From a virus, in the IMG/VR virus record IMGVR_UViG_3300035156_000177, positions 1 to 60,852 of that record: DNA of 60,852 nt. The stretch is one strand, 5' to 3'. Shown piece after piece: positions 20,857 through 40,399 of this stretch (its first letter is position 1; every line of letters begins with the position of its first letter). A program made the translations under genes and the position numbers. Under the pieces are notes generated by a model. The model ran no database searches. It saw only the letters and a program-made list of their open reading frames with translations, and was not told the origin of the DNA.

Positions 20857-23324
20857 TCACCCCAGAGCACGAGCGTCTGCTGTCAGAGCGGCACGCCATC
20901 ACCCCACAGGTCGCCGAGGACTTCGGGATCTACTCCGTGACCACCGTCGACCAGCTGCCCACAGAGTTCGCCTGGGTGGGCGAGGAGGGGCTGCCAGGCC
21001 TCGTCTTCCCCTGGGTGTCCACCTCGGGCGACAAGGTGCCCCAGTACCGCCCCGACACCCCCATCGAGGTCGAGGACGAGGACCGCCCCCGCAAGTACCT
21101 CTGGCCCAAGGGCTCCGGCTCGGTGATCGGGGTGGTCCGGGAGGACGACAGCGACCTGGCGATCATCGTGGAAGGCACCAAGCAGGCCATCGTCTGCGCC
21201 GCCTACACCGAGGTGGGGTCGGTCTACGCCGTCGCCGGGTGCCGCAACTGGTCCGAGGACGGGGTGCCCAACGCCGACCTGTCGGTGGTCGAGGACAAGC
21301 GCGTCCTGGTCATGTTCGACGGCGACGTCCGGACCAACCTCGACGTGTGGACCGCCGCCAACCGGCTCAAAGAGGCCCTCATCCCCGAGGGCGCCACCTC
21401 GGTCGAGTTCGTCAACGTCCCCGCCGCCGGGACCGCAGCCCTCGACGACGTCCTCGCGCGCCGGCCCGAGGACAAGCGCTCCCCCTACGTCACCCGCCTC
21501 CTCAAGACCGGCAAGGCGAACCTCGGCGCCGCCCCCAAGGCCAAGCCCCGGCGCCGCAAGACCGACGCCGACGGCCGCCCCGTGGTCACCGTCAACGGGG
21601 ACCGCTACACCGCCATCGAGACCCTCACGGCGGCCCTGGTGAACCGCTACGACGCCGACGTGCTGTTCAACTTCGGCGGGCTGATCGCCCAGCGCCAGGG
21701 GGCGGCGATGGCCCCGGTCACCCACGGCATGTTCCCCCGCCTGGTCCACACCGCGGCGATGTGCATGGCCCTGAACGCCAAGGGCGAGGTCGTGGCCTCA
21801 GAGCCCTCCCAGCAGGTGATGAGCGCCTGCCTGCACAGTGCTGAGTTCTTCTCCCCGCTGGAGAAGATCGCCCAGGCCCCGTTCGTCCGTGAGGACGGCA
21901 CCATCTGCCAGACGTCGGGCTACGACGCCCAGTCCGAGACCTACGTGGTCCTCACCCCCGAGCTCGAGCGGATCGACGTGCCCGAGTTTCCCACCGCAGT
22001 CCAGCGAGAAAGAGCACTCGCCGACCTGCATCACTGGCTGATCGACTTCCTGGCCATCATGCCCACCGACGCCGACAAGGCCAACGCCCTCGGCCTGGTC
22101 CTCACCCCGTTCGTCCGGGGCCTGTGCGGCACGGTGCCGCTGGCCGTGGTCAACGGGCTGCAGATGGGGGTGGGCAAGAACATGTTCGCCGACATCCTCT
22201 CCCTGCTGGTCACCGGCGAGCGCGCGGCCGCCCTGCCCTGGTCGAAGGAGGACGAGGAGAACCGCAAGGTGATCACCGCGGCCTTCCGGTCCGGGGCCAA
22301 GCTGTTCGTGTTCGACGAGGCCCACAAGATCGAGGGGATCTCACTCAGTCGGGCCCTGACCGGGGACACCTACACCGACCGGATCCTGGGCTCGTCGACC
22401 AACGTCGAGCTGCCCAACAACGTGACCTGGGTGGCCCTGGGGAACAACGTCACGGTCAACGGGGACACCTCCCGCCGGTACTACACCATCCGCCTCGAGC
22501 CCCAGACGCCCAACCCCCAGGACCGCTCGGCCGACGCCTTCACCCACGCCGACGTCCGGCAGTACACCCTGGACAACCGGGTGGCGCTGCTGGAGGCCCT
22601 GCTGACCCTGGTGCGGGCCTGGTTCGTCGCCGGGCAGCCCCAGAGCGCCGCGGGGCGCCGGTTCGGGTCGTTCGAGTCCTGGGGTGGGATGGTCGGCGGG
22701 ATCCTCCAGGTGGCCGGCGTCGAGGGCTTCCTGGGCAACCTGGTCGAGACCCGTTCGGAGTCCGACTACGAGCGCACCTACTGGCTCGACCACTACCGCT
22801 GGCTCACCCGGAAGTTCGGGGTGGGCACCAGTTTCACGGTCGGTTCAGTCGTAAGAAAGCTCCTGGAGGACGGTCCGGGGACTGCTGAGTGTCCTCCGGG
22901 GCTCGAAGATCCGGAGGCCAAGGGGTACAACCGGCGGCTCGGACAGGCCTACCGGCACCAGAAAAACAAGGTTTTAGACGATCTGCAGCTGATCCAGAGT
23001 CGTCGGTCGGACCACCACGGGAACTCGTGGACGGTCGTGGTTCGTGATCGGAGCCTCCAAAACCCGGCCAAAGAGCCCGAAAAAACCTTAAAACTGGGTG
23101 ATAGGGGTATTAGGGGTGTTAGATCTAACGTAGATTCTAAATGTGCGAGGCTTCGCACGAATGAACCTAGTGAACCGATACCTGTAGAGACCGATACGCG
23201 TTTATTGGCCGAGAGGACGAAACCTAACACCCAACATCACCCCTATCACCCCGACGGCCTCTCGGAGGTCCTGGAGGGGCTGAACGGCCGTGAGGGTAGT
23301 CGAGCAAGGTTCAGAAGGGTATGA
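20853..23324 (+). CDS. Toprim/AAA primase-helicase
   Basis: 823 residues; GTG 20853 chosen because it overlaps the previous stop (GTGA). The N-terminal third has a Toprim-like core: AIIVEGTKQAIV (about 104, Glu) and MFDGDVR (about 155, DxD-like). The C-terminal part is an AAA/SF3-like motor with Walker A GLQMGVGKN (about 435), Walker B KLFVFDEAHK (about 483) and an arginine-rich sensor NGDTSRRYYTIRL (about 540). It should unwind DNA and prime synthesis for DnaE. The last about 80 codons lie in a low-GC inverted-repeat element (23096-23252) and encode an atypical tail (LGDRGIRGVRS, later NTQHHPYHPD). Confidence 0.88.
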   Translation: MITPEHERLLSERHAITPQVAEDFGIYSVTTVDQLPTEFAWVGEEGLPGLVFPWVSTSGDKVPQYRPDTPIEVEDEDRPRKYLWPKGSGSVIGVVREDDSDLAIIVEGTKQAIVCAAYTEVGSVYAVAGCRNWSEDGVPNADLSVVEDKRVLVMFDGDVRTNLDVWTAANRLKEALIPEGATSVEFVNVPAAGTAALDDVLARRPEDKRSPYVTRLLKTGKANLGAAPKAKPRRRKTDADGRPVVTVNGDRYTAIETLTAALVNRYDADVLFNFGGLIAQRQGAAMAPVTHGMFPRLVHTAAMCMALNAKGEVVASEPSQQVMSACLHSAEFFSPLEKIAQAPFVREDGTICQTSGYDAQSETYVVLTPELERIDVPEFPTAVQRERALADLHHWLIDFLAIMPTDADKANALGLVLTPFVRGLCGTVPLAVVNGLQMGVGKNMFADILSLLVTGERAAALPWSKEDEENRKVITAAFRSGAKLFVFDEAHKIEGISLSRALTGDTYTDRILGSSTNVELPNNVTWVALGNNVTVNGDTSRRYYTIRLEPQTPNPQDRSADAFTHADVRQYTLDNRVALLEALLTLVRAWFVAGQPQSAAGRRFGSFESWGGMVGGILQVAGVEGFLGNLVETRSESDYERTYWLDHYRWLTRKFGVGTSFTVGSVVRKLLEDGPGTAECPPGLEDPEAKGYNRRLGQAYRHQKNKVLDDLQLIQSRRSDHHGNSWTVVVRDRSLQNPAKEPEKTLKLGDRGIRGVRSNVDSKCARLRTNEPSEPIPVETDTRLLAERTKPNTQHHPYHPDGLSEVLEGLNGREGSRARFRRV
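23096..23252 (+). repeat. low-GC inverted-repeat element, copy A
   Basis: Left arm GGGTGATAGGGGT then GGGTGTTAG (23096-23122) and right arm CTAACACCC then ACCCCTATCACCC (23224-23251) are inverted repeats of each other with one gap and three mismatches. The interior is AT-rich with a 12-bp palindrome GTTAGATCTAAC (23118-23129) and a hairpin GTGCGA-GGCT-TCGCAC (23143-23158). It is inside the primase reading frame. A second copy in opposite orientation lies at 59474-59640. Confidence 0.8.
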
Positions 23325-23641
23325 TGGTTCACATGACACAGCTCAAGCCGCTGGAGCCGGTGCGGTACTACCTGCCGGTCGACGACGCCACGGTGCTCAA
23401 GGTCCTCAACGGGCTGCCCTCGGGGGTCTACGCCTCCAAGGCCCTGCACGAGCGCTACGTCGCCCTCGCCCCACCCAGCGAGGTCGCGGGGATGCAGCCG
23501 GCATCGGTCCAGAAGTTCGGTGCCCGGCTCCGTGAGCTGGGGTTCAAGCCGGTGCACAAGCACGGTGTCCGGTCCTGGGTGATCAACAACCGCCAGACGC
23601 TGCGCCTGGTGGCCGAGCTCGCAGAGGGGTACCAGCGATGA
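23321..23641 (+). CDS. small DNA-binding-like protein
   Basis: 106 residues; ATG 23321 overlaps the primase stop and has AGAAGG upstream. Pattern suggests a winged helix (VYASKALHERYVALAP, then SVQKFGARLRELGFKPVHKH) similar to C-terminal domains of phage/plasmid primases. Probably binds DNA and assists the primase-helicase. Confidence 0.68.
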   Translation: MMVHMTQLKPLEPVRYYLPVDDATVLKVLNGLPSGVYASKALHERYVALAPPSEVAGMQPASVQKFGARLRELGFKPVHKHGVRSWVINNRQTLRLVAELAEGYQR

Positions 23642-23835
23642 GGGAGAACAACCGCAAAACTTCAAGTTCGGTTGAGGTTTCGTTTGACGAGCATGTCCGG
23701 ACATTGCCGGTGGCTTGTCCCTGGCTCCCCTACGAGCGGACCTGGGGCATCAGGCGCTACCTCGAGCAGGCCCTGACCCCGCCCCGCCGTTCCCAGCGCC
23801 ACCCCGAGCACCTCCACCTGAACTTCCCCGTCTGA
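23638..23835 (+). CDS. hypothetical protein
   Basis: 65 residues, ATGA overlap with the previous gene. Basic protein with several Pro and His; the first 50 bases are less GC-rich than the surroundings. Not recognised. The stop shares a base with the next start. Confidence 0.62.
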   Translation: MRENNRKTSSSVEVSFDEHVRTLPVACPWLPYERTWGIRRYLEQALTPPRRSQRHPEHLHLNFPV

Positions 23836-24317
23836 TGGCCGAGATCACTCGCGATCTCGTGACGACACTGGTCGCATGCGAGCGAGCTCAGCTCGAACCC
23901 GACCAGTGGATCATTGGTCTGGCCCAGTCCTGGCTGGAGCGTGACCAGGCCGCACGGGACGCCGAAGCCAAACTGGCGGCGGTGGCCAAGTTCGCCCAGG
24001 ACTGCCACACAGAGGTCGAGCGTCGGCAGGCGATGAAGATGCACGGCCCGCACCTCGACGCGGCACAGGTAGCCCAACGGCTCGACGACCTGGTGGGTGG
24101 CGACCAGGAACAGCCGAAGCCCGAACCCGTGTGCGACAAGTGCCACAAGGGGATGACCTACCGGCTGGAAGACGGACGGGAGTCGTGCTGGTGCGGTGCC
24201 CTCAAGGAGCCGAAGCCGGTCGACGCCATCGTGGGCGCCCCTGCAGCGGCTGCGGTCGAGGACGTGACCCCGCCGTGGCACGGGCCCCACCACGCCGAGC
24301 TCGGGGGTGTGAAGTGA
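23835..24317 (+). CDS. hypothetical protein with zinc motif
   Basis: 160 residues. Helical N-terminal two thirds; then CDKCHKG (about 99) and CWCG (about 118), a four-cysteine zinc ribbon; then a Pro/Ala-rich tail ending in WHGPHHAELGG. Unknown role. GTGA overlap with the next gene. Confidence 0.72.
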   Translation: MAEITRDLVTTLVACERAQLEPDQWIIGLAQSWLERDQAARDAEAKLAAVAKFAQDCHTEVERRQAMKMHGPHLDAAQVAQRLDDLVGGDQEQPKPEPVCDKCHKGMTYRLEDGRESCWCGALKEPKPVDAIVGAPAAAAVEDVTPPWHGPHHAELGGVK

Positions 24318-24538
24318 GCTGGTGGCGCTGGAGGCGCTCAGAGCCCCGCAGACGCTCCTGGGAGGATTGGCCCGCCCCGGGCTCCGCAGACGCTCCTGGC
24401 CCCGCCAGGGCCCCGGGATCTGACCCTGTAGCCGAAGGGGTGGACCCCGGGATGACCGTCGTGTCGCCCCAGGGGATCCGGCTCGTCAAGCAGCCCGACG
24501 GGTCTTTCACCAACGCCGACCCCATCAACCTGCCCTGA
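24314..24538 (+). CDS. hypothetical protein
   Basis: 74 residues from GTG 24314. Basic Trp/Arg-rich start (SWWRWRRSEPRRRSW), Pro/Ala-rich centre, and a C-terminal MTVVSPQGIRLVKQPDG. A 16-bp direct repeat (24346 and 24384) lies in its first half. Last gene before the terminator at 24551. Unknown. Confidence 0.55.
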   Translation: MSWWRWRRSEPRRRSWEDWPAPGSADAPGPARAPGSDPVAEGVDPGMTVVSPQGIRLVKQPDGSFTNADPINLP

Positions 24539-24550
24539 TGGAGACCTGCA

Positions 24551-24581
24551 GAAGGGGCCGGTCGTGATGACCGGCCCCTTC
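24551..24581. terminator. bidirectional terminator
   Basis: Perfect 13-bp stem GAAGGGGCCGGTC / GACCGGCCCCTTC (24551-24563, 24569-24581) with loop GTGAT, between a plus gene ending at 24538 and a minus gene ending at 24600. No long T run, but position and strength fit a shared terminator. Confidence 0.75.
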
Positions 24582-24599
24582 GCTTTCAAGCGGCGAGGA

Positions 24600-24983
24600 C
24601 TACCAGCCGCCGGCGCCCCGATGGTTCAGGTACACCGACGTGGCGATCGCGGTGGGTGTCCGCCAGCAGCGGGTGCTGTCGGAGTACCGGATGATGTACC
24701 ACGGGGACGCCGACCCCGACGTGCGGGCGACGATGAGGATCGACCCCACCGACCCCACCCCGTGAGCCAGCTCGCCGACGTCGACGAAGTCCCGGGTGCC
24801 GGTGCAGTTGTTGGAGTGGTAGGCGTACAGCGCGGTGTTCGACCGGCTGGAGTTCCCCAGGACGGTCACCGCCTGAGGTGTGGCCGGTGCCGGCTCGGGT
24901 GCGGCCGCCTCCGCTGTGGACGCCAGTGCCCCGGACAGGGCCAAGCCTGCGGTGACGATCGCTGCGGCCTTGAGTGTGTTCAT
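24600..24983 (-). CDS. secreted protein, lone minus-strand gene
   Basis: 127 residues; ATG at 24983 chosen because GAGGAG precedes it on the minus strand and it starts a signal peptide (MNTLKAAAIVTAGLALSGAL, cut probably after ASTAEA near 31). The mature part is small and beta-rich with cysteines in NNCTGTRDF and STRCW, likely one disulfide, and many Ser/Tyr/Thr. It resembles small secreted actinobacterial proteins. As a monocistronic gene opposite to its surroundings, flanked by a terminator and a divergent promoter, it has the layout of a lysogenic-conversion or moron gene. Confidence 0.78.
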   Translation of the reverse strand: MNTLKAAAIVTAGLALSGALASTAEAAAPEPAPATPQAVTVLGNSSRSNTALYAYHSNNCTGTRDFVDVGELAHGVGSVGSILIVARTSGSASPWYIIRYSDSTRCWRTPTAIATSVYLNHRGAGGW

Positions 24984-25062
24984 GCTGCTCCTCGATCTCG
25001 TCCCCCGAGATCGGAACATCCGATGCGCCCACTGTGTCCGGCACGAGGGTCATCTCACCCGG

Positions 25063-25068
25063 TAACGT
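25063..25068 (+). promoter_or_regulatory. -10 box of a leaderless transcript
   Basis: TAACGT lies 7 bases before ATG 25076 with no Shine-Dalgarno between; the same arrangement as at 4481 and 27761. No clear -35. It is in the 92-base divergent region with the secreted-protein gene. Confidence 0.45.
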
Positions 25069-25075
25069 GGGATCC

Positions 25076-25345
25076 ATGGCCTACGACCCGCTCAACTCCG
25101 CGAAGAACCGTGACCCCAGTGAGTTCGGCGGGTCCGCGGGCCACCCCCAGCCGCTGGCCATGGGCCACGTCGAGCTCACCCCGCAGGAGAAGCGGATGAT
25201 CGTCCAGCGCGAGACCATCGCCTCGGCCGGCGTCATGGAGGACCTCGACCCCACCGACGAGCACTACGCCGCGGTGATCGACCTCGCCGAGAAGCGGCGC
25301 GACATCTACCGCTCCGGCCACTCCCTGGGGGATGCACTGTCATGA
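25076..25345 (+). CDS. hypothetical protein
   Basis: 89 residues. Starts MAYDPLNSAKNRDPSEFGG; helical with acidic stretches; no recognised domain. First gene of the 25-27.6 kb operon ending with the terminase small subunit. ATGA overlap with the next gene. Confidence 0.75.
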   Translation: MAYDPLNSAKNRDPSEFGGSAGHPQPLAMGHVELTPQEKRMIVQRETIASAGVMEDLDPTDEHYAAVIDLAEKRRDIYRSGHSLGDALS

Positions 25346-26914: not shown

Positions 26915-27065
26915 CGTCCACGTCGAGCCGATCAACGACCTGATCGAGCACCAGGACGAGGACTGCCCGTGCGGTCCCGAGACAGAGCCCGTGCCGCGCG
27001 AAGACGGTAGCATCGGCTGGCTGATCATTCACCACTCCCTCGACGGCAGAGAGCTCAACGAATGA
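26907..27065 (+). CDS. small conserved phage protein
   Basis: 52 residues from GTG 26907. Contains DEDCPCGPET and ends in GWLIIHHSLDGREL, a C-terminal pattern I recall from many actinobacteriophage small proteins lying just before terminase genes. Function unknown; the CxC could bind metal. ATGA overlap with the terminase small subunit gene. Confidence 0.7.
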   Translation: MSNVHVEPINDLIEHQDEDCPCGPETEPVPREDGSIGWLIIHHSLDGRELNE

Positions 27066-27622
27066 CCGCGGTGGCACCGGAGGGGCGCCAGCAGTGGGGC
27101 GGCAAGAAGCGGGTGCGCAAGAAGCGGGCCAAGGTTCCCGAGCGCTACCAGCAGCTGATCGACGGGGTGATCACCGTCGACGACCTGGACGACGACGAGA
27201 TCGCGCGCGGCCAGCTGCGCAACCGCAACGGCGGGTTCTCCTCGCCGCCGCAGGCGATCCCCTGGGTGATGCACGACGCGCTGAGGGCCAGCATGGAGCG
27301 CCGGATCCAGCGCCAGCTGATGAGCAAGATGACCGAGGTCACCGACGCCCTGATCAAGATCGCCACCAACGACTACGGCAGCGCTGAGGCCCGGGTGAAG
27401 GCCATGGCGCTGATCTTCGACCGGGCTCTGGGCAAGGTCCCGGAGAAGTCGGAGAGCAAGGTCACGATCACGGCGAAGTGGGAGGACGCGGCCGCCGGCG
27501 GCCGGTTGTTCATCGACCTCGACGAGCCCGAGGGCGACGTCGTCGACGCCGAGGTGGTGCAGACCCCGGAGATCGAGGCGAAGAACACAGGAACTCGGCA
27601 GCGCTCGGGCATCGTGCTCTGA
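27062..27622 (+). CDS. terminase small subunit (putative)
   Basis: 186 residues. Basic N terminus (GGKKRVRKKRAKVPERYQQL), then ELxxGQLRxxNGGF-type sequence (EIARGQLRNRNGGFSSPP, about 49-66) and a long helical region (MERRIQRQLMSKMTEVTDAL). This pattern is typical of small terminase or terminase-associated proteins in actinophages. It would recognise packaging sites and recruit the large subunit, which here lies 17 kb downstream. Followed by an intrinsic terminator. Confidence 0.62.
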   Translation: MTAVAPEGRQQWGGKKRVRKKRAKVPERYQQLIDGVITVDDLDDDEIARGQLRNRNGGFSSPPQAIPWVMHDALRASMERRIQRQLMSKMTEVTDALIKIATNDYGSAEARVKAMALIFDRALGKVPEKSESKVTITAKWEDAAAGGRLFIDLDEPEGDVVDAEVVQTPEIEAKNTGTRQRSGIVL

Positions 27623-28933: not shown

Positions 28934-28972
28934 ACAAAGCCCCCGTCCCTGTGAGGAGGACGGGGGCTTTGT
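28934..28972. terminator. strong bidirectional terminator
   Basis: Perfect 15-bp stem: left arm 28934-28948 (ACAAAGCCCCCGTCC), right arm 28958-28972, 9-base loop. It stands between the plus operon ending at 28922 and the minus operon ending at 28978. The AAAG/CTTT ends supply short A/T tracts on both sides. Confidence 0.9.
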
Positions 28973-28977
28973 GCTGT

Positions 28978-29232
28978 CTACGACCGGGCGATCAGCTGTT
29001 TGATCCTCTCACGGGACGCGCCGGCCTTCTTGACCCGGTCCTCGCCCCAGCCCTTGGCCAGCAGCCCGTCGCGGACCATCTGCTCGATCTCGGCGTAGGT
29101 GAGGTTGGCGTCGCGGTGCAGGCACGCCATCGACGCGGCGCTGGACCGCATCCGCTTGGCCACCTCGTCCTCGGCGCGGAGCTTGACGTGGAAGTCCTGG
29201 ACCACCGAGGCGACCAGGTCCGCCACGATCAC
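28978..29232 (-). CDS. hypothetical protein of the antisense operon
   Basis: 84 residues from GTG at 29232, overlapping the stop of the upstream gene (GTGA). Helical, with an amphipathic N-terminal region (VIVADLVASVVQDFHVKL) and a basic C terminus (GEDRVKKAGASRERIKQL). Last gene of the antisense operon. Not recognised. Confidence 0.7.
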   Translation of the reverse strand: MIVADLVASVVQDFHVKLRAEDEVAKRMRSSAASMACLHRDANLTYAEIEQMVRDGLLAKGWGEDRVKKAGASRERIKQLIARS

Positions 29233-29492
29233 CCGGCGTCCTGACCGGGCAGGCCGGCGATCAGCAGCAGCACGACGATCAGCGGCAGCTCGACGGCGAA
29301 CCAGGTCTGCAGGTAGACCATCGCGGGCACGGTCTGCTTGCGGGTGATGGTCTGCAGCACCCCGCCCTCCCCCCACGACTGCTGGTGTTGGTCACCGTCG
29401 GGCTTCCAGGACGAGACCACGGTCACCAGCCCCGCGATCACTGTGGCGAGGACCGTGGCTACGATCAGCCCCGCCTTGACTCCGATGTTCAT
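29229..29492 (-). CDS. two-helix membrane protein
   Basis: 87 residues, ATG at 29492 in an ATGA overlap with the hydrolase stop. Two membrane segments: KAGLIVATVLATVIAGLVTV (about 6-25) and FAVELPLIVVLLLIAGL (about 66-82). Holin-sized, and it follows a cell-wall hydrolase, so it could be a holin or a membrane partner of the FtsK-like pump. Confidence 0.7.
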   Translation of the reverse strand: MNIGVKAGLIVATVLATVIAGLVTVVSSWKPDGDQHQQSWGEGGVLQTITRKQTVPAMVYLQTWFAVELPLIVVLLLIAGLPGQDAG

Positions 29493-31516
29493 GCTTGTGT
29501 CCCCTTGTCCCTGTTGAATGAGAGGTGGACGTGCCCCTCGTGGTTGGACGCCCCCGAGTAGGGCCGCCATCCGTCTCCTGACCTATCCAAGGTCCAGATC
29601 TGGTTGTTGTGGATCACCTGCTCGACCCCCAGCTGCCGGGCGTTCGCTCGGGCCCAGCGCGAGATGTCGAACCCGAGCTGCTTCCTCGACCCGGTCATGA
29701 TGTCGCAGGCGTGGCCGGTGTAGTGGAACGAGTTGGCTACGTGCCCCGACTTCTGGATCGCGCAGTCGGCGACCCTGACCTTGATCGGGAAGTGCTTCAT
29801 GACCAGCTCGCGGCCGCGCGCGGTGTTCGGGGCCATGTTGTCGGAGCGGATCGGCCAGCCCGCGGGAGGCCCGCCCTTGAGGGTGGCCTTGGCCAGGCTC
29901 GGCGTGCCCTTGGATCCGATCTCGAAGACCCTCAGGCGGCGCTTGTCGCCGGTGAAGACCTTGACCCCGATCATGTTCCCGAAGACACCCTCGGGCTCCC
30001 GGTTGCCCTTCTTCTCGCCCTTGCGGAACCCGACGTCGGTGACGTCGCGGATCCCGATGCGCTTGCCGGTGGTGAACGACCAGGTCTCCATCGAAGCCGG
30101 GCCGTTGGTCTTGCCGGACAGGATGGTCAGGATCTTCCCGCTCACCCCGAACCCCTGCCGCATCCCCGGGGCGGTCTTGATCTGGACCCCGATCTCCTTC
30201 TTGGTGGCCATGTCGTAGAGCCGGTACTTGTTGCCGCGGCGGATGACCGCCCGGTCGGCGTGGGGGTCGATGCTGATCTCGCCGTGCCAGCCGGTCTTGC
30301 TCTGGCTGCCGCCGTCGATCGTCGTCCCGCCCCGGTAGGGGAACGAGACCACGGTGTCGGAGACGTCGGCGTAGACGATGCCCTTGCGGACCCCGATCCC
30401 GGTGGGGTGCATCTCGCCTCGGACACGCATCTCCGAGACCTGCTGGCCGGCGCCGTTGAGCTGGTGGACCACCGCGGCGTTGTTGCCGGTGGTGGCCTTG
30501 GCGACGTACCAGTACGGGCCGTCCTTGGCCATGGTCTGGAAGTTCCCGGCGCCCGAGGGGTTGAGGCTGATGACCTCGCGGACCGTGCCGTTGATGTCGC
30601 CGGTGGCGGTGCCCAGACCGGGGTCGCCGGTCGGCGGCTGGGCGCAGTCGGTGGGGTTGGGCACCGGGTCGTTGGGGTCGGCCTGCATGGCGTTGGGCAG
30701 TTGCTCGACACGGACCCCGGGCTGGTTGGGGACGAGGTTCTCGTACTGCGGCGCGTCGCTCTGGGCGGAGTGCCGGGTCGACCAGGGGTAGTACGGGCTG
30801 CGGCCGTTGGCGACGCTGTCACGCGCCACCTCGAGGGCCTTGCGTGCGTTGGCGTACGGGTCCTGCCAGTTCGGGATCTTCCAGTACTGGTCGTTCAGCT
30901 GCCACATCCCCCGCATGGTCCCGGCTCCCACCGTGGGGCCGACGGCCTTGGGGTTGAACGAGGACTCGTGCTTGGCGATGGCGATGAACATGGCGATCCA
31001 CTTCTTGGGGAACCCCGCCCGGGAGAGGGCGTCGGCGGCCAGCTCGGCGCCGGAGAGCTCCTTGGTGGTCGACAGGCTCGCGGGCTGTACGGTCCCTCCC
31101 CCGCTCTGTGGGGGCGTGCCGGGCTGTTCGACGGGCACGGTGGCCAGGGTGGGGCAGCACGACGCCAGGGCGGCCTCGTAGGACGCCTGGCCGGTGCTCT
31201 GCCAGGCGGCCGACAGCGGCGTCTCGGGGGCGTTGGCGCCGTACTTGACGTGGGCGACGAAGTCCTGGCGCCACATGTCGATGATCCCGATCCCGCCCAT
31301 CACGGTCTTGTGGATCTGGGCGTACGAGGGCTGCTTGCCGGTCTGGCTGATGTCGTGCAGGAACGTCCCGGCGATGCCGGTGTACTCGAGCCCGCGGACG
31401 GCGGGGATGGTGGTGACCTGGGGGCCGCAGTTGACCTTGACCTCGGTCTGGTTGACCGCCACGGCGCCGGCGATGAGGACGGTCGACACGATGATCGGGG
31501 TCCAGTGGACAGACAT
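29489..31516 (-). CDS. membrane-anchored transglycosylase/propeller/peptidase-like protein
   Basis: 675 residues; ATG at 31516 shares a base with the previous stop. An N-terminal membrane anchor (about 6-22) is followed by a lytic transglycosylase-type domain (about 155-250) with catalytic Glu in AKHESSFNP (E184) and GMWQLNDQYW. Next come a beta-propeller (about 307-535) and a C-terminal domain with HYTGHACDIM (598-607) and HEGHVHLSF (659-667), like the ARB_07466-type peptidoglycan domain of actinobacteria. The protein would cut both glycan and peptide of the wall, a VirB1-like role beside the FtsK-like pump. The propeller is related to that in the endolysin (34905). Confidence 0.82.
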   Translation of the reverse strand: MSVHWTPIIVSTVLIAGAVAVNQTEVKVNCGPQVTTIPAVRGLEYTGIAGTFLHDISQTGKQPSYAQIHKTVMGGIGIIDMWRQDFVAHVKYGANAPETPLSAAWQSTGQASYEAALASCCPTLATVPVEQPGTPPQSGGGTVQPASLSTTKELSGAELAADALSRAGFPKKWIAMFIAIAKHESSFNPKAVGPTVGAGTMRGMWQLNDQYWKIPNWQDPYANARKALEVARDSVANGRSPYYPWSTRHSAQSDAPQYENLVPNQPGVRVEQLPNAMQADPNDPVPNPTDCAQPPTGDPGLGTATGDINGTVREVISLNPSGAGNFQTMAKDGPYWYVAKATTGNNAAVVHQLNGAGQQVSEMRVRGEMHPTGIGVRKGIVYADVSDTVVSFPYRGGTTIDGGSQSKTGWHGEISIDPHADRAVIRRGNKYRLYDMATKKEIGVQIKTAPGMRQGFGVSGKILTILSGKTNGPASMETWSFTTGKRIGIRDVTDVGFRKGEKKGNREPEGVFGNMIGVKVFTGDKRRLRVFEIGSKGTPSLAKATLKGGPPAGWPIRSDNMAPNTARGRELVMKHFPIKVRVADCAIQKSGHVANSFHYTGHACDIMTGSRKQLGFDISRWARANARQLGVEQVIHNNQIWTLDRSGDGWRPYSGASNHEGHVHLSFNRDKGTQA

Positions 31517-31791
31517 CACTTCCCCTTCGAGCGCAGGACGAAGCTGAGCAGAATCGAGACGATGCCGACCGCGCAGCACACCAGCTGGACGCTGTTGGGG
31601 AGCGAGGACATCATGGTCCCGCCCAGCGAGCACCCCGTCCCGATGATGCCGAGGTTGGTGCCCAGCGACGCCTTCTTCTGGGGCTGGGGCTGGACGCCCT
31701 TGCTGTCGGCGCGCTCGTAGGTGGTGGCGCGGACGTGGACGGTCTTGCCGTTGCGCGTGTAGCTGTAGGGCTTGCGGTGCACCGTGGTCAT
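31516..31791 (-). CDS. small membrane protein
   Basis: 91 residues, ATG at 31791 overlapping the translocase end by 4 bases. A basic, Tyr/Arg-rich N-terminal half (HRKPYSYTRNGKTVHV) and a C-terminal membrane region (SVQLVCCAVGIVSILLSFVL, about 66-85). Unknown; possibly a membrane partner of the neighbours. Confidence 0.7.
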   Translation of the reverse strand: MTTVHRKPYSYTRNGKTVHVRATTYERADSKGVQPQPQKKASLGTNLGIIGTGCSLGGTMMSSLPNSVQLVCCAVGIVSILLSFVLRSKGK

Positions 31792-33974
31792 TCCGAGAAC
31801 CCCCAGCCCTGGACGGGGCCGCCGGGCCGGGAGGCGCCGACGAGGTGGGTCAGGTGGAAGTTGTCGTCGGTGCCGGTGGGCGCCAGGTCGTAGCCATCGG
31901 GCTCAGGCACAACATCGTTGCTCGGCGTGGGCTCTTCTTTGCGTATCGGTGTCACAGACGCAACTTCCTTGTCTACTGGCGCAACTTTCTTGCGTACGAT
32001 CCGGCGCTTCCGCTTCGCCTCGGTGGCTGCGGCCTGCTCCTCGGTGGGGGTGGTGAGCACGTACGGCTCGCGCTCGACCAGGGACGCCTTGAAGTGCCGC
32101 TTCTTGGTCTCGACCGGCTTCTCGTCGTCGATCACCTTGCCGTCGATCGTCATGGACGGGCCGCGGTAGGTGAGCCGGGTCAGGTGGACCTTGCGGTTGT
32201 TCCCGGCCCCGGCGATGTTGAACATCGGCTGCAGCGCGTGGATCTCGGCCTTCTCCATGGCGACTGCCAGGTCGTGCCCGGCGACGACGCAGGACATGGT
32301 GAAGAGTGCGTGCTTCTCCCACCACCGGCAGTCCTGAACGGTGCAGATCGGGCACTCGCCCTTCCACACATCGTCCCTGCGGTGCTCTTTGTAGCGGCGC
32401 TCCCGGTTGTTCGTCTCGCCGGTGTAGATATGACCGATCTTCCTGTTCTTGAGATATCCGAACGTCCGGTACAGGTAATGCGGCCTCTGCCCGTTCCGCA
32501 ATTCGCGGGCCAGGTCCCGGGTCATCATTCCCTCGGGTAAAGTCCCGGTGGTCATGACGTGGCGGATATGGACCTTGGTGACATTAGCGGTTCTGAACTT
32601 AGCTTTCTGACCGCTTTCGGTGACATAGAAACCCACACCCGGCATATCGAACGGAATGGAGGTGCAGGGAACCCCATCGCTTTCACTGATACCGAGGGCC
32701 GCCTTTGTCGCCTCGGCGGTCATCTGACGAAGGCTGACTTTCATCTGGAATGCCTTGCCGATCCCGCCGATCTCGGCCACGGTGGCGGCCTGGACGCCCA
32801 TCCAGACGAAGTCCTTGGTGCGCCGACCCTGGGACATGTAGACGCCCATGTTGGTGTTCGCCATCCCCTTCTGGAACAGCGGAGCGACGTCCAGGCCCTC
32901 GTCGATGATTGTCCACTGGGCCCGGAACTCATCGGTCGGGTGCTCGAGCTCCTCGCCCGGTCCGAACATCCGGTCGGCCCTGGCCTGGCGCCGGTGCAGC
33001 TCGTGGCGCATCTTGAGGAAGTGCGCCTCGGCCTCCTCGAGCACTCGGTTGTGCACCTCGTCGTCCTCGACGTCCTCGTCCTCTTCGGGCCCGATGTAGG
33101 TGACGATGCGGATGCGGCCGTTGGCGAAGGACTTGCCTTCCCACTGCTTGAACCAGGCGAACTCGCTCTTGGGGTCGATCAGGGTCATGTCGGTCGGGGT
33201 GCCCGGGAGCGAGGGGTCGAGGTTGTCGCGCAGCAGGTCGAAGAACGCGTTCCAGATGAACTTCGACTTGCCGGCGTTGGAGGTCGCCGAGATCTGGAGG
33301 TTGTAGCCGAACGGGACGGTGGCCGCGTTGCCGTCGTTGAGCCACCCGAAGGTCAGCGACCTCGCACCGGACGGGGGTAGGTCCAGCACGGTCCGGGGCG
33401 CCTCGAGGGGGCTCTTCTTGTAGAAGGTCAGCCATGCCGAGCCGGTGGTGACGGGGCTGACCGAGACTTCCTGGCAGTCCATGATGCCGGGGAGGATGGT
33501 GACGGCGTCGGCCGCGATCCGGGCCAGGTCGCCGCCGACCTTGCCGGGGTTGACCATGGCCTTGATCTCCCCGGTGGAGGTCATCTTCTTGGCGTAGAGC
33601 TTGGGCTCGACGTTGGTGAACGGGCGCTTCGGCCCGGTGACGTAGATCTCCCAGCGGGCGTCGGTGTCGCCGAACTTGTTGGTCGAGGAGAACACGTTCT
33701 TGAGCAGCTGCAGGAACCCGCCCTCGACGCCCTCATCGCGGAGGTCGGTGAACCGGTCGTACACCTTGAGGAAGCCGACCCACAGCCCGAGGCCGGCGAG
33801 GACGCCGAGCACCATGCCGCCGCCTTTGAAGATGTCCCCGGTCCACCCCCAGAACTTCCACCAGGCCAGCAGGACCAGGAAGGCGAAGATGCGGGGCGGG
33901 AAGTCCAGGACGGCGCGGTTGGGGTTGCGGACCCAGCGGTAGAGGGCGGGGACCTCGAGGAGGAACTTCTTCAC
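31788..33974 (-). CDS. FtsK/TraB-like DNA translocase fused to a GIY-YIG nuclease domain
   Basis: 728 residues from GTG at 33974 (weak Shine-Dalgarno; no earlier in-frame start). Two membrane segments (about 28-45 and 52-68) precede a motor with Walker A ISATSNAGKSK (228-238), the FtsK-like TLIDPKSEFAW (264-274) and Walker B QWTIIDEGLD (353-362). Residues about 499-590 form a complete-looking GIY-YIG domain: HYLYR, HIYTGETNNRERRYKEH, and Glu in EKAEIHALQPMFNI. A Lys/Arg-rich and then acidic tail follows. Membrane FtsK-type pumps of this shape move double-stranded DNA between mycelial actinobacteria during conjugation. The nuclease fusion is unusual. Base composition drops between about 32290 and 32740. 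Confidence 0.85.
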   Translation of the reverse strand: MKKFLLEVPALYRWVRNPNRAVLDFPPRIFAFLVLLAWWKFWGWTGDIFKGGGMVLGVLAGLGLWVGFLKVYDRFTDLRDEGVEGGFLQLLKNVFSSTNKFGDTDARWEIYVTGPKRPFTNVEPKLYAKKMTSTGEIKAMVNPGKVGGDLARIAADAVTILPGIMDCQEVSVSPVTTGSAWLTFYKKSPLEAPRTVLDLPPSGARSLTFGWLNDGNAATVPFGYNLQISATSNAGKSKFIWNAFFDLLRDNLDPSLPGTPTDMTLIDPKSEFAWFKQWEGKSFANGRIRIVTYIGPEEDEDVEDDEVHNRVLEEAEAHFLKMRHELHRRQARADRMFGPGEELEHPTDEFRAQWTIIDEGLDVAPLFQKGMANTNMGVYMSQGRRTKDFVWMGVQAATVAEIGGIGKAFQMKVSLRQMTAEATKAALGISESDGVPCTSIPFDMPGVGFYVTESGQKAKFRTANVTKVHIRHVMTTGTLPEGMMTRDLARELRNGQRPHYLYRTFGYLKNRKIGHIYTGETNNRERRYKEHRRDDVWKGECPICTVQDCRWWEKHALFTMSCVVAGHDLAVAMEKAEIHALQPMFNIAGAGNNRKVHLTRLTYRGPSMTIDGKVIDDEKPVETKKRHFKASLVEREPYVLTTPTEEQAAATEAKRKRRIVRKKVAPVDKEVASVTPIRKEEPTPSNDVVPEPDGYDLAPTGTDDNFHLTHLVGASRPGGPVQGWGFSE

Positions 33975-34043
33975 GGGAGGCCTTTGGTCTGGGAGGGGGA
34001 GGTAGGGGCGCCCCGCACGGGTGAGGTGCGGGGCGCCGGGTGG

Positions 34044-34283
34044 TCAGGGCGCGATGCCCTTGGTGGGCTTGCTCGCTGCGTTCTTGGCCGCGGCGAACTT
34101 GTCGCCTCCGCCGGACAGCGAGCCGACCAGGATTCCGCTGCCGACCTCGCCGGTGTCGCGGACGTAGTTGACGCCGGTTGCGGCGGAGTTGATCCCGTCG
34201 ATCCGGGCCCAGCATCCGATCGCCAGTGCGGCGATGACGAATGCGCCGGCGAGCCACCGGCTGAGCGTTCCTTTCTTGAACAC
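34044..34283 (-). CDS. small membrane protein, first gene of the antisense operon
   Basis: 79 residues; GTG at 34283 with GAGAGGA upstream. One membrane helix (WLAGAFVIAALAIGCWARI, about 10-28), then a Gly/Ser/Ala/Lys-rich outer or cytoplasmic tail (KFAAAKNAASKPTKG). Could be secreted or anchored; no family recognised. A 69-base gap separates it from the translocase gene. Confidence 0.7.
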   Translation of the reverse strand: MFKKGTLSRWLAGAFVIAALAIGCWARIDGINSAATGVNYVRDTGEVGSGILVGSLSGGGDKFAAAKNAASKPTKGIAP

Positions 34284-34453
34284 GATGGTTCCTCTCGGTT
34301 GTGAGCCCTGGGGCTCCGGTGGGGGAGACGCCCTCGCCTTCGGTTCTCGGCTGAGTAGACAGAGAGCCGGTCCCCGACAGAGCTGCTCCCCCATGGGGCT
34401 CTGCCGCGGACCGGCCTCGGCGTACTCGCCTCCTCCCGGCCTCGATGTCGTCG

Positions 34454-34481
34454 GGTAACACGCTACCGGTAGTGCGCTACC
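34454..34481. promoter_or_regulatory. tandem 14-bp palindromes, operator candidate
   Basis: GGTAACACGCTACC (34454-34467) and GGTAGTGCGCTACC (34468-34481) lie back to back; each is an imperfect palindrome GGTAnnnnnnTACC. On the minus strand they overlap possible promoter boxes (TTGGTA, 17 bases, TGTTAC) of the antisense operon. They contain GTAGCGCACTA, also found at 27736. Confidence 0.6.
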
Positions 34482-34760
34482 AAAGCGAGCAAACATGTGC
34501 CGTTTTCCGTGCGAATGTTGAACTTTGTTGCGTGCGGGGTTAGGCTCGGCGCGCATCCACTCGCTTCGCTCGCTGCGCGCGCCGGACCGGCTCCTCCCTC
34601 GACGAGTCCCGATCCGCTAGAGTTGGGCCCACGTCTTCCGCTCCGGTGCTGGCACACCGTCCGCAGGTTCCACCACAACCTCGATGCGGTCGACGTCAGA
34701 CTTCCGAAGCCACCTCGTCGAGTCCCCGATGTCACCGCTCGATCAGGTTCTGGCCACCTG

Positions 34761-34785
34761 TTGACACATCCGTCGCCCGTATGCT
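34761..34785 (+). promoter_or_regulatory. possible promoter of the lysis genes
   Basis: TTGACA (34761-34766) and TATGCT (34780-34785) are only 13 bases apart, shorter than usual; an alternative -10 at 34784 is poor. ATG 34792 lies 6 bases after TATGCT, as in the leaderless genes elsewhere. Confidence 0.35.
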
Positions 34786-34791
34786 GTGCGT

Positions 34792-34914
34792 ATGCCACCT
34801 GCTCTCGTGCTCTCCCGGATGCACCAGGTTCCGAGGACGCTCTCCAGCGTCTCGGGCTTGTTCGTGCCTTCTGGCTCTGCCCTTCTCCAGGGGGGTGTGG
34901 GGGGATGGCGGTGA
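34792..34914 (+). CDS. possible 40-residue leader peptide of the lysin gene
   Basis: ATG 34792, directly after a TATGCT box, opens a frame (MPPALVLSRMHQVPRTLSSV at the start) that stops at TGA 34912-34914, 10 bases inside the lysin gene. It lacks a Shine-Dalgarno and its third positions are less GC-biased than core genes. It may be a leader peptide coupling translation to the lysin, or not be translated at all. Confidence 0.3.
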   Translation: MPPALVLSRMHQVPRTLSSVSGLFVPSGSALLQGGVGGWR

Positions 34915-36617
34915 AGATCTTCAAGCTGGCCCGGTGGACGGGGCCTTGGGGTGTGGACCTGATCCAGGGGGTCAAGTACATCCGGATGAGGAGCGGCAAG
35001 ATCCGCTACGTGATCGCCCAGGCGGAGAAGGTCCGGGGTCAGGACGAGGAGGACACGGTTTTCCGGGAGACCGACGGCGACGGGAACTTCGTGGCCACCT
35101 GGGTCCAGAAGCGCGGCGGTCACGGGTCGAGTTTCGGGTTGGACGAGATCGACGGGGACCTGTGCGTGTGGCAGGGGCATCTGGTGAAGGGCGTCGGCTG
35201 GTGGCCGCTGGGCCGGCCCGGTGAGTTCCATCCCGTCAAAGGTGTTCCGAACGGCGACGTTTCTGTTGATCCGAAGGACGATTTGCTGTCGGTGCGTCGC
35301 GGTAACCGCCATATTGTCTACGCGCTGTCATCTGTGAAGGACGGCGCACCGATTGTGTTGGCCGATACGACGGTTCCGTCGTGGGGGAAGCGGTTTCAGG
35401 GTTCGATGGTCACACAGCTCGCCGACGGCCGGATCGCGCAGCTGGTGCACCGTGATGTCGAGTCGAACGGGGCGTCGCGGGCGCACCGGTTCGTGATCGA
35501 GAAGGGCGAGCTCGTCGAGGACGGGTGGGTGGACACCGCACCGTTGCCGGGCAAGACGTCGAGGGAGGCCGAGGGGTTCCTCGAGGAGGAGGGCGTGATC
35601 AGTGCGACCTTCCGGATCGGCGGGAACAACTCGTCGAGGACAGTGATGGCGGTCCCGCTGCAGTGGCAGGGCCTTGTCGAGGTGGGCTGCGACAGCCCGC
35701 CCCCAGAGATTCAGGAGCTCGAGATGGCCAAGGACTACACGACCGGATATGGGTGGACCGCGTCGCCGGACCCCGACACGTGGGGCGGCAACGCGACGAT
35801 CGACTGCTACGGGACCAAGTTCCGGGTGCGCCGGGACCTGGTGATCGGGAGCAAGGACGGCATCCTCGCCGACGCCTTCCGCTACCTGATCTTCTCGTTC
35901 AACCGGCGGGTGGAGCGGATCTCGGAGTACGCGAAGGGCGACGACTGGTCGTTCTACTTCAAGGCCAACGCCAACAACCCGAACAAGATCTCCGAGCACG
36001 GCGGCGGGGTGGCGATCGACATCAACGCGACCCAGCACCCCAACGGCGCAAGCAGCAAGTACGTGGGGTTTACCAAGGCCCAGGTCGCCGAGATCGACCA
36101 GATCCTCGATGAGATGGAGGGGATCATGGAGTGGGGCGGCAACTGGCGTTCCACGATCGACGGGATGCACTTCAACATGGCGCCGGGGACGAACAGCACG
36201 GCGGGCAAGAAGGAGGTGGCCCGGGTGGTGGGTGAGCTGCGGAAGCGGATGAAGGCGGACCCGACCAACTTCGGTCTGCCGGGGATGCCGCCGGCCAAGC
36301 CGTTGATCTCGCTGCGGGCGGTCCAGAAGGCGATTGAGGGCCGGGAGCGGCTCGACCTGGGGGAGGACGGGAAGCAGTACCAGACCATGCTCAACCGGTT
36401 CCACGACTATGTCCTCGAGGTCGACGGAATTCTCGGGAAGGACACGCGCCGGTCGACGTCTTTGGCCCAGCTGAAAGTCGCCCAGGGAAATGGCAACACG
36501 ACGTTGGACAAGGACGACTGCTGGCAGGACGGTAAAACCGACTTCCATCCTGACCTGGACGGTATTCCCGGTAAAGAGCTGTTCGCCGCTCTCGGCATTG
36601 ATAACAGTGACTCATGA
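34905..36617 (+). CDS. endolysin: beta-propeller plus M15 peptidase
   Basis: 570 residues. ATG 34905 chosen because a GGGGGTGTGGGGGG purine tract precedes it and upstream sequence is not coding-like. Residues about 50-255 form a propeller-like repeat region related to that of the antisense hydrolase (for example NGDVSVDPKDDLLSVRRGN). Then an M15/VanY-type peptidase: SEHGGGVAIDIN (363-374; His365, Asp372) and DGMHFNM (419-425; His422). The C-terminal 110 residues (SLRAVQKAIEGRERL onward) look like a wall-binding domain. It should cut peptide bonds in peptidoglycan at lysis. Overlaps the holin gene by 4 bases. Confidence 0.88.
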   Translation: MAVKIFKLARWTGPWGVDLIQGVKYIRMRSGKIRYVIAQAEKVRGQDEEDTVFRETDGDGNFVATWVQKRGGHGSSFGLDEIDGDLCVWQGHLVKGVGWWPLGRPGEFHPVKGVPNGDVSVDPKDDLLSVRRGNRHIVYALSSVKDGAPIVLADTTVPSWGKRFQGSMVTQLADGRIAQLVHRDVESNGASRAHRFVIEKGELVEDGWVDTAPLPGKTSREAEGFLEEEGVISATFRIGGNNSSRTVMAVPLQWQGLVEVGCDSPPPEIQELEMAKDYTTGYGWTASPDPDTWGGNATIDCYGTKFRVRRDLVIGSKDGILADAFRYLIFSFNRRVERISEYAKGDDWSFYFKANANNPNKISEHGGGVAIDINATQHPNGASSKYVGFTKAQVAEIDQILDEMEGIMEWGGNWRSTIDGMHFNMAPGTNSTAGKKEVARVVGELRKRMKADPTNFGLPGMPPAKPLISLRAVQKAIEGRERLDLGEDGKQYQTMLNRFHDYVLEVDGILGKDTRRSTSLAQLKVAQGNGNTTLDKDDCWQDGKTDFHPDLDGIPGKELFAALGIDNSDS

Positions 36618-36895
36618 GTATCTGGCAGAAGGATTTCTGGAAGGCTGCGGTCGAGCGCATGGTTCGGGGTGCGGCTATCGGGGCAGGGACAATTGTCGGC
36701 GGTGACGTGTTCAATGCCTTCGAGGCTGACTGGGAGCGGATTGGCGGGGCCGCTGCGGGCGGGGCGTTCCTGTCGTTGCTGTTCTCGCTGATCGGTAACG
36801 CCGCCTCGGGGAACGGTCCGTCGTTCACCAGCACCGAGCAGGTCGCCACCGGCTACGGCACGTCGCTTGCGGAGCGGGAAGCGGGCGAGAAGTAG
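36614..36895 (+). CDS. holin (r1t-like)
   Basis: 93 residues. MSIWQKDFWKAAVERMVRG at the start is typical of r1t-type holins, followed by two hydrophobic segments (about 17-33 and 44-62) and a charged tail. It would form membrane holes at lysis. Placed between the endolysin and the glycoside hydrolase, with coupled starts on both sides. Confidence 0.85.
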   Translation: MSIWQKDFWKAAVERMVRGAAIGAGTIVGGDVFNAFEADWERIGGAAAGGAFLSLLFSLIGNAASGNGPSFTSTEQVATGYGTSLAEREAGEK

Positions 36896-38482: not shown

Positions 38483-40399
38483 ATGGTGGTGCTCGACGAG
38501 ACCTTGGCCGCGTACGAGGCGGACCACCGGCTCCACCACCAGGTCCTGCGCGACGCGTTTCTGATGCGCAACCCTGCGGCGCAGCTGCCGGTGTTCGTGA
38601 ACTACGGGGTGGTCCACGACGAGATCCATGCGACCCTGCACGACGAGCACAACGACCTGGGGCTGACCCCGACGCTCCCGACGGCCATTGGCGGATCTGA
38701 GCACGTCGAGCACCACGAGATCCTGGCAGCCGCCCACAACGTGCGGGAGGTTACCCCGGACATTCCCCAGACGGCGCTGCGCGGGTGGTGGAAGGCCGAC
38801 GCGATCACCGGGGTGGCGTCGGGGGCGGCGCTGACGTCGTGGCCGAGCTCGGTCGACGGCGGGGTTCCGTTGACGGCGACTACGGGCCCGTTGTACGTGT
38901 CGGAGGGGGCGGTACTGTCCAACACCCGCCCTGCGGTGCAGTTCACCGGCGCGGTCAACATGGTCTCGACCACCGATAACAACACCGCCTCCACCAAGTT
39001 CATCGTGCTCCGCCCTGGGTCGTTCGGTGGTGGGTCTTCGTTCTACGCCGGGTCCGGTGGCAACGGCTACGAGCTGGGCCTGGGCCCCGGTGGGAAGTTC
39101 GACGTGTTCGTGGGAAACACCATCGTGGCTCGCACGGGGACCGCTGAGGGGACCCCGATCCCGATCAACACCTGGCACGTCCTGGCGGTGCGGGGCAACG
39201 GGTCCAACTCGACGACCACCTACATCGACGGGGTGCAGGACGGGCCGACGTCGACCGCCGGCCACAGTCCGGCCTCCACCGGGACCATCGTGGGGTCGTC
39301 GAACGGGGGCGGGTACTTCAACGGCTGGATCTCGGAGGTCATCGACTACAGCGTCGCGCTGAGCGACCTCGAGATGGGCGAGGTGACCGACTACCTGCTG
39401 ACCAAGTACGCGATCGGCGAGGTGGGTGCGCCGGACCTGACAGGGGTGTTCCGCAACTTTGACTGGGACACCTCGGAGAACCAGGCGTTCACGCACTCGG
39501 CGTCGGACTACCAGGTCGGCGCCGCTCACCAGCACGCGTGGCTGACCACCCCCACCCGATTGGGCACCGGCCACTCGGAGCGCTTCGAGTGCCACGGTCA
39601 GGCCACCGACATCGCCGGTGGGAACTCGTACCGGGCGATGATGGACGTCGTCGACACCAACGAGGGCGGCGACACGGTGGGAGCGGTGATCGGCTATCCC
39701 GAGGTCTACTATGCCCTGTCGACGTTCTGGCCGACGGTGGCCGGGACCCCGTCGCAGGCGACGATCACCCCGGGCTACTCCCAGGTCGGGATCCCGTTCG
39801 AGTCCATCATGGAGATCCACGAGCGGGGGAACGTCAACGGTGGCACGGTCGGGATCAACAACCTCAACCAGGTGACCAACCACCACATCGGGCTCCGCAA
39901 CGGCCAGTTGCAGTACCGCGGCTGCAACGGGACCTGGACGTGGAACGGGAGCGGTTGGACGCAGCCGGCGTGGAACACGGGCACCCCGGGGACGACGGGG
40001 AAGAACGACCAGATCCCGGTGCCGATCGTGAAGCCGGGTGTGACGGACGCGGCGATGCCGTCGGACACCTGGGTCGACATCATCATCCACATCCTCTTCC
40101 GCAAGGACTCGACGGGGCTGGTCGAGGTGTGGGCCCGGCAGGCGGGGCAGGAGTTCACCACCCTGCCGGGGGTCACGATCAACGGCCCGACACACAAGGT
40201 CGCGGTCGGCTCCGACGGAGTCACCCGCTCGTCGGCCGACTACGAGGCGGCGAACCTGGTCACCGGGTGCTACTTCCACTGCGGTCTCTACCCGGCCGGG
40301 ACGGTCTGGGCCGACGGGACCAACGGGGCGCATGTGCAGATCATCGACGAGCTGCGGCGTTACGGAACGCTGGCCGAAGCCAAAGCCAACTGGGAGTAG
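38483..40399 (+). CDS. tail fibre protein with LamG-like domain
   Basis: 638 residues. N-terminal 95 residues are His-rich and helical (attachment region). A LamG/concanavalin-like beta-sandwich (about 98-310: LRGWWKADAITG, then TWHVLAVRGNGSNSTTTYID and FNGWISEVIDYSVALS) is followed by a C-terminal jelly-roll resembling polysaccharide-lyase-like folds (YALSTFWP, IMEIHE, TWVDIIIHILFRKDSTG). Likely binds or degrades host surface polysaccharide. Start at ATG 38483 has only a weak Shine-Dalgarno. Confidence 0.8.
   Translation: MVVLDETLAAYEADHRLHHQVLRDAFLMRNPAAQLPVFVNYGVVHDEIHATLHDEHNDLGLTPTLPTAIGGSEHVEHHEILAAAHNVREVTPDIPQTALRGWWKADAITGVASGAALTSWPSSVDGGVPLTATTGPLYVSEGAVLSNTRPAVQFTGAVNMVSTTDNNTASTKFIVLRPGSFGGGSSFYAGSGGNGYELGLGPGGKFDVFVGNTIVARTGTAEGTPIPINTWHVLAVRGNGSNSTTTYIDGVQDGPTSTAGHSPASTGTIVGSSNGGGYFNGWISEVIDYSVALSDLEMGEVTDYLLTKYAIGEVGAPDLTGVFRNFDWDTSENQAFTHSASDYQVGAAHQHAWLTTPTRLGTGHSERFECHGQATDIAGGNSYRAMMDVVDTNEGGDTVGAVIGYPEVYYALSTFWPTVAGTPSQATITPGYSQVGIPFESIMEIHERGNVNGGTVGINNLNQVTNHHIGLRNGQLQYRGCNGTWTWNGSGWTQPAWNTGTPGTTGKNDQIPVPIVKPGVTDAAMPSDTWVDIIIHILFRKDSTGLVEVWARQAGQEFTTLPGVTINGPTHKVAVGSDGVTRSSADYEAANLVTGCYFHCGLYPAGTVWADGTNGAHVQIIDELRRYGTLAEAKANWE

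Follow-up and report, generated by a model that had tools for sequence, protein, structure and literature searches.

What would a tailed phage do with a membrane-anchored motor of the kind that pumps DNA, encoded next to an enzyme that opens cell walls? The question is raised by a six-gene module at positions 28978-34283 of a 60,852-bp IMG/VR record (IMGVR_UViG_3300035156_000177; 67% GC, without end repeats), which was analysed over its full length and is referred to here as the window. An initial annotation of this DNA had suggested that the phage, or a lysogenic or plasmid form of it, might spread by conjugation. Phages and conjugative elements are usually regarded as separate routes of DNA spread, and in the open-access literature we found no description of such a phage module. 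Here we report that the module recurs in the same gene order in two other phage records, that its motor carries a GIY-YIG nuclease domain missed by the initial annotation, and that its composition tentatively points to a trans-envelope DNA transporter, perhaps one that passes DNA out of the infected cell to a neighbour or another compartment.

A six-gene module shared by unrelated phages

A codon-usage gene caller placed 84 genes in the window. Seven lie on the minus strand, and six of these are contiguous and constitute the module, here named A to F in the order in which they are read:

34044-34283, minus strand: gene A, first gene of the module, GTG start; 79 amino acids (aa), one N-terminal transmembrane (TM) segment, conserved tail SGGGDKF
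31788-33974, minus strand: gene B, 728-aa membrane motor of the FtsK superfamily with a C-terminal GIY-YIG nuclease domain and the conserved C-terminal motif HLTHxxG...SE
31516-31791, minus strand: gene C, 91-aa membrane protein with a C-terminal TM segment, conserved in order
29489-31516, minus strand: gene D, 675 aa; TM anchor, lysozyme/SLT domain, propeller-like centre and C-terminal peptidase-like domain
29229-29492, minus strand: gene E, 87 aa, two TM segments in all three known copies
28978-29232, minus strand: gene F, small soluble protein of 84 aa, conserved in position

From B to F, neighbouring genes overlap by 1-4 bp, as expected of a single operon. Codon usage supports B (score 415) and D (404) strongly, and the scores of the small genes are all positive as well (44-59). 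The module sits between a rightward block that includes the terminase small subunit and a divergent endolysin-holin block, the location given in the initial annotation:

27062-27622: terminase small subunit
34905-36617: endolysin
36614-36895: holin

Viral scans for the module, together with a capsid scan, returned just two further copies, G002 and G018, both from one metagenome; absence elsewhere in these scans is weak evidence, and the comparison comprises three sequences, two of them from that metagenome. The identical gene order in both further records rules out a chance arrangement, and it bears out, with the gene calls, the six antisense genes first noted. G002 (IMGVR_UViG_3300025875_000012, 68.6 kb) is a sister phage of the window, with a major head protein 90%, a DnaE 73% and a portal 63% identical, and it holds the module in the same place and on the same strand, with a motor 58% identical to that of the window. 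G018 (IMGVR_UViG_3300025875_000011, 76.2 kb) has a different backbone, its portal, major head protein and terminase belonging to PHROG families 104, 10 and 9 as against 64, 3990 and 2 in the window; its overlap with G002 is limited to one mid-size gene, some small genes and a portion of a single tail protein. Its motor is 73% identical to that of G002, the three motors being 56-73% identical overall. As the history of the module thus differs from that of the phage backbone, the comparison implies that the module moves horizontally between phages, and it is carried by two unrelated kinds of virus whose hosts are probably actinobacteria. In G018 the module runs in the direction of its neighbours, so the antisense orientation emphasized at the outset is not a defining feature. 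Among the searched relatives of the window's phage group, the module was absent from all except G002.

Five of the six genes, all but F, are homologous across the three phages, with E of G018 supported more weakly. The A orthologues are 56% (G002) and 55% (G018) identical to the window copy, with z-scores of about 33-36 against shuffles; for C the z-scores between copies range from 6.5 to 28.6. The window copy of E scores 18.7 against G002 and 4.2 against G018, and G018 against G002 gives 8.4. Similarity among the F proteins is weak (z 3.2, 5.7 and 0.3), and their homology across the phages is not established. TM segments were predicted in A, C and E and none in F, in agreement with the earlier statement that at least three of the four small proteins are membrane proteins.

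Gene B encodes a divergent FtsK-superfamily motor with a nuclease domain

Three parts can be distinguished within B:

33765-33896, minus strand: N-terminal membrane segment(s), residues about 27-70
32556-33386, minus strand: motor core with Walker A, IDPK, Walker B (IIDEG) and sensor-like segments
32157-32555, minus strand: GIY-YIG nuclease domain with a zinc-finger-like CxxC...C...H insertion, residues about 474-606

Hydropathy indicates one TM segment (48-66), and in an AlphaFold model helices 27-45 and 48-80 are the sole part with a predicted local distance difference test (pLDDT) value near 70. Single-sequence Pfam searches of the window protein gave no FtsK match, and PF01580 matched one motor copy at E 0.023, below its cut-off. 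The only significant NCBIfam match was to the EccCa profile, found in all three copies (best E 5.4e-7). In an alignment of 19 sequences, the three phage copies and 16 known FtsK-superfamily proteins, Walker A, DPK, Walker B and the later motifs line up in order. The Walker A motif is the non-canonical ATSNAGKS in the window and AASGAGKS in the relatives. A motif-by-motif alignment covered pIJ101 Tra, FtsK and EccC, and just before Walker B the sequence of pIJ101 Tra (HERLELIPRGQDVIQISPERPRITVFIDEG) is similar to that of the phage motor (HERQDMLPPGEDLDDPTDEMPGVLTIIDEG). Judged by these motifs and matches, B is a divergent FtsK-superfamily ATPase.

A profile of the three phage motors was then scored against a panel of 24 proteins and shuffled controls. 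The best match was the FtsK/SpoIIIE-domain protein of Bifidobacterium choerinum plasmid pBC (31.2 bits), followed by pIJ101 Tra (17.9 bits); cellular-type FtsK proteins came third and lower (at most 10.3 bits), and the best shuffled control reached 2.3 bits. Profile alignment with hhalign picked out the same two proteins. E was 1.6e-12 for the Bifidobacterium protein, or 4e-9 in another run at default alignment settings, while pIJ101 Tra reached 5e-7; the comparison produced no alignment with VirD4, VirB4-like, Streptomyces EccC or FtsK-group proteins. Of the "membrane FtsK/TraB-like pump" originally proposed, the FtsK-superfamily membrane motor therefore stands, with two plasmid motors of the panel outranking cellular FtsK, but kinship with TraB as a whole is not shown, because the match extended to a single sub-group of the Streptomyces transfer motors included. 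A tree, put forward as a check on this assignment, gave a divided answer: the best tree places the phage motors outside a clade of FtsK proteins (support 99/98), on a long branch whose position is not settled, but the approximately unbiased (AU) test also allows them to join FtsK.

The domain that follows the motor matches Pfam PF01541 at E 0.0016 (score 19.1, below the cut-off of 22.6) and PHROG endonucleases at E 0.004-0.007. The catalytic pattern Y-Y-G-R-E-N is invariant in all three copies, as is the cysteine-rich insertion. From this pattern and the profile matches, we assign the C-terminal domain of B to the GIY-YIG nucleases, with its catalytic residues intact. No match to the FtsK gamma (winged-helix) domain was found in B at E values up to 10. 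Searches of PDB sequences with the motor and nuclease alignments gave no match; a tblastn search with the motor gave no relative in phages or plasmids at E 0.001, and at E 10 nothing beyond chance-level matches. Genome-collection scans, which require near-exact short peptides, revealed no cellular relative.

Gene D encodes an anchored hydrolase with differing heads

The part of D that is best conserved in all three phages is its membrane anchor:

31112-31516, minus strand: N-terminal anchor region of D, about 135 aa

The anchor is 60% and 35% identical between phages while the catalytic heads differ. In the window these comprise an SLT lysozyme (PF01464 above its cut-off; SLT_3, E 1e-5), a propeller-like domain (Phage_RBD_prop, E 0.0035) and a peptidase-like C-terminus identified weakly (phrog_32486, E 3e-6). 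G002 has lysozyme-like, EEP and NlpC/P60 heads, and G018 has SLT-like, EEP (by similarity) and M15-like heads, several of these names in the two relatives resting on sequence reading and weak matches. The membrane-anchored wall hydrolase of the initial annotation is thus confirmed, as a modular protein. Its architecture of membrane anchor, muramidase and peptidase is that of VirB1/CwlT-like proteins, and is not exclusive to conjugation. Relatives of its domains adjoin type IV secretion system (T4SS) genes (SCO6880/TraM/VirD4) on actinobacterial conjugative plasmids, and occur also in mycobacteriophage tape measure proteins.

Within single genomes, the centre of D resembles a lysis-side neighbour. 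The EEP domain of D in G002 is similar to that of a neighbouring lysis-side gene (33% over 237 aa, E 3.6e-23), and in the window the propeller of D weakly resembles the propeller of its lysis-side neighbour (25%, E 6e-4, without composition correction). Because of these resemblances we infer that envelope-directed domains have been exchanged.

Noncoding flanks and candidate regulatory signals

Three features bound the module:

34284-34904: noncoding region of 621 bp between the divergent module and endolysin genes
34454-34467 and 34468-34481: two adjacent GGTA-N6-TACC palindromes, candidate operator
28940-28967: hairpin resembling a bidirectional terminator, where the end of the module meets the rightward genes; from a consensus scan only

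Upstream of gene A, the noncoding stretch measures 645 and 813 bp in the two relatives. GGTA-N6-TACC occurs twice in the whole window, both times in this region, and once in all of G002, against a shuffled expectation of about 0.55 per genome; in both phages it lies 170 bp from gene A. The motif was chosen after the two upstream sequences had been viewed, so that its rarity is a description and not a prior test, and we regard the pair as a candidate operator.

In G018 an imperfect, nested inverted repeat occupies noncoding DNA upstream of gene A (L084:8045-8613); its arms measure about 190 nt each, are 77-87% complementary and flank a 190-nt spacer. This repeat is absent upstream of the module in the window and G002. 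Clusters of repeated 8-mers far above the shuffled expectation occur in noncoding DNA of G018 (22590-25135, near 22921 and 24917), away from the module; none was found next to it.

A putative DNA transporter and its alternatives

We tentatively favour a trans-envelope DNA transporter because a conduit for DNA calls for a motor, a membrane-held wall opener and small membrane proteins, and the operon encodes B and D together with three such proteins in all three phages, which represent two unrelated lineages. The FtsK-superfamily kinship of B, the ranking of two plasmid motors above cellular FtsK and the relatives of D domains beside T4SS genes on plasmids also speak for it. There are also precedents for transfer by a single motor or by a motor with a nuclease: Streptomyces TraB moves double-stranded DNA alone, often with spd genes in its unit (PMC12857230), and Thermus TdtA, an FtsK/HerA-type motor encoded beside a NurA-like nuclease, is required for DNA donation (PMC5365140). 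According to this proposal B, a presumed relative of Tra-type plasmid transfer motors, would assemble into a membrane-anchored ring that pumps double-stranded DNA across the cytoplasmic membrane, and cuts made by its GIY-YIG nuclease may initiate or terminate transport. D, held in place by its conserved N-terminal anchor, would open the peptidoglycan locally, with enzymatic heads swapped to suit the host wall; an anchor that is kept while the heads change is expected if it docks to the complex. A, C and E may act as membrane partners in a role comparable to that of plasmid Spd proteins, and F as a soluble accessory. Produced during infection from its own regulated promoter, the machine would move DNA, preferably that of the phage, from the infected cell to a neighbouring cell or compartment.

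Each known system resembles the module in part. Like pIJ101 Tra, which is accompanied by SpdA, SpdB and KilB, B is a membrane motor of the FtsK superfamily whose gene is accompanied by genes for small membrane proteins; unlike Streptomyces TraB/Tra, it has a nuclease where TraB has a C-terminal DNA-recognition domain, its operon holds a dedicated wall hydrolase, and it is carried by phages. The pBC protein adjoins a replication initiation factor-type gene, but it consists of 253 aa of motor only, with neither a nuclease nor an adjoining hydrolase, and its function is not established. TdtA is likewise an FtsK/HerA-type ring motor that works with a nuclease in cell-to-cell DNA donation, whereas its nuclease is separate and of another family and it belongs to an integrative element; the likeness is functional, the sequences not having been compared. 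Actinobacterial T4SS-type plasmids (SCO6880, TraM/VirD4) encode wall hydrolases that combine SLT with peptidase (NlpC or M23) domains, and a Pimelobacter plasmid match spans the lysozyme and EEP parts of D of G002; in contrast to these plasmids, the module has no second ATPase gene, and the phage motor matched neither VirB4-like nor VirD4-like proteins.

Several observations weigh against the transporter proposal. The strongest single-family match of B is to EccCa, a protein secretion ATPase; the two leading motor matches score low (31 and 18 bits) within a small panel, in which several other Streptomyces transfer motors fail to match the phage profile. The AU test rejects no placement of the phage motors, whether with FtsK (p 0.24), pIJ101 Tra (0.42) or EccC (0.31). 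The position of the C-terminal winged-helix domain of TraB is occupied in B by the nuclease. AlphaFold runs with two sequences of the full motor and three of the motor core gave pLDDT values of 31 and 35, and the domain types of D serve ordinary endolysins and tail proteins too. No VirB4 was found in the module. In the three phage records (the window, G002 and G018), neither a relaxase of PF03432 or PF08751, the two families searched, nor a tyrosine integrase or serine recombinase was found. The clt/TRS-like repeats that the initial annotation had suggested looking for did not appear either, no cluster of at least four identical 8-mers within 160 bp being present in the window or G002. With neither an integrase nor a tested relaxase, the lysogenic or plasmid form that had been envisaged was rejected. 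The bolder claim that a movable conjugation-like machine lets lytic phages from two or more unrelated lineages pump their DNA across membrane and wall, straight into a neighbour cell, seems to us rather unlikely.

The main rival, although we consider it unlikely, is superinfection exclusion or another action against competitors, in which the motor would capture incoming phage or plasmid DNA for the nuclease to cut, and the hydrolase, with secreted phosphodiesterases, would alter the wall or degrade DNA outside. A motor fused to a nuclease, a separate transcription unit with a candidate operator and exchange between phages that are unrelated but probably have a host in common would all suit such a device, as would the secreted PLD-family proteins near the module in G002 and G018 and the EEP domain in D of G002 and, by similarity, G018. 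A wall hydrolase docked to the complex, however, has no obvious place in it, and elsewhere pumps of the FtsK type that come with wall hydrolases are known as parts of transfer systems. PADLOC returned no match for B or D of the window and weak partial matches in the relatives (mad8, E 0.001, one copy), none of them meaningful; a known defence system, as judged by family match, was accordingly rejected.

DNA handling inside the cell during lytic growth, by a motor-nuclease acting at the membrane on DNA of host or phage (host chromosome breakdown, processing of concatemers or genome pull-in), with the hydrolase serving wall remodelling or early lysis, is improbable. The phages appear to be of lytic type, with no integrase found, and the endolysin region of the phage itself contains domain types that also occur in D, but terminase, nuclease and helicase genes exist elsewhere in the phage and the gene order links D to B. 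The absence of the module from the searched group relatives other than G002, moreover, argues that phages of this group can grow without it.

An EccC-like ATPase exporting proteins, as in a type VII-related secretion device, is very unlikely. EccC is indeed an FtsK-superfamily ATPase, and EccCa is the sole significant NCBIfam match of the phage motors; yet B has one ATPase domain against three in EccC, Streptomyces EccC failed to align by hhalign, and no Ecc or WXG100 family matches, nor other type VII partners, were found among the module proteins scanned, while the fused nuclease points to DNA. That the module is a passenger taken from a conjugative plasmid and without a role in the phage is very unlikely as well, since despite its resemblance to plasmid transfer genes and its patchy distribution, the frames are intact in three phages, the active-site residues are kept in motors only 56-73% identical, the position of the candidate operator is conserved in two phages and the GC content of the module matches that of the phage.

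The host phage and neighbouring genes

The record comprises most of a tailed phage genome, with these landmarks:

44831-46216: terminase large subunit
50856-51992: major head protein
55936-59466: tape measure protein

Further genes encode a portal, a head protein, a DnaE-type polymerase, an SNF2-type helicase, a PD-(D/E)XK nuclease and an AAA-type ATPase. The terminase is 59% identical to that of Arthrobacter phage Wollypog and 55% to those of Microbacterium Krampusvirus phages, and because of this kinship the host is likely an actinobacterium. In Wollypog, and in the first 50 kb of Krampus, every annotated gene has the same orientation, and neither gene set yielded a relative of the module. 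As read from gene order, about 9 kb present in G002 is absent from the window.

The left end of the window carries genes for an ArdC-like antirestriction protein and a cytosine-C5 methylase (490-1548 and 3195-4460). The seventh minus-strand gene (24600-24983) encodes 127 aa with an apparent signal peptide and no PHROG match; G002 and G018 have small signal-peptide-like genes of differing sequence. At the tail-fibre position, two large proteins (38483-40399 and 40457-43960) share a domain (36% over 221 aa) and have counterparts in G002. The PLD-family proteins near the module lie at L084:5774-6853 in G018 and L030:4377-5573 in G002 and give weak DrmC-like matches; we noticed no such protein in the window. 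G018 further encodes, at L084:2342-3145, a secreted glycerophosphodiester phosphodiesterase-like protein.

Implications

The cassette appears to combine a plasmid-transfer-like motor, a nuclease and a wall opener, and to pass between unrelated phages. If the proposed function is correct, phages would possess a second transmission route beside their virions; otherwise the cassette may represent a new exclusion device. The module offers a defined minimal gene set with which to ask what DNA transfer by a single motor needs across a Gram-positive wall.

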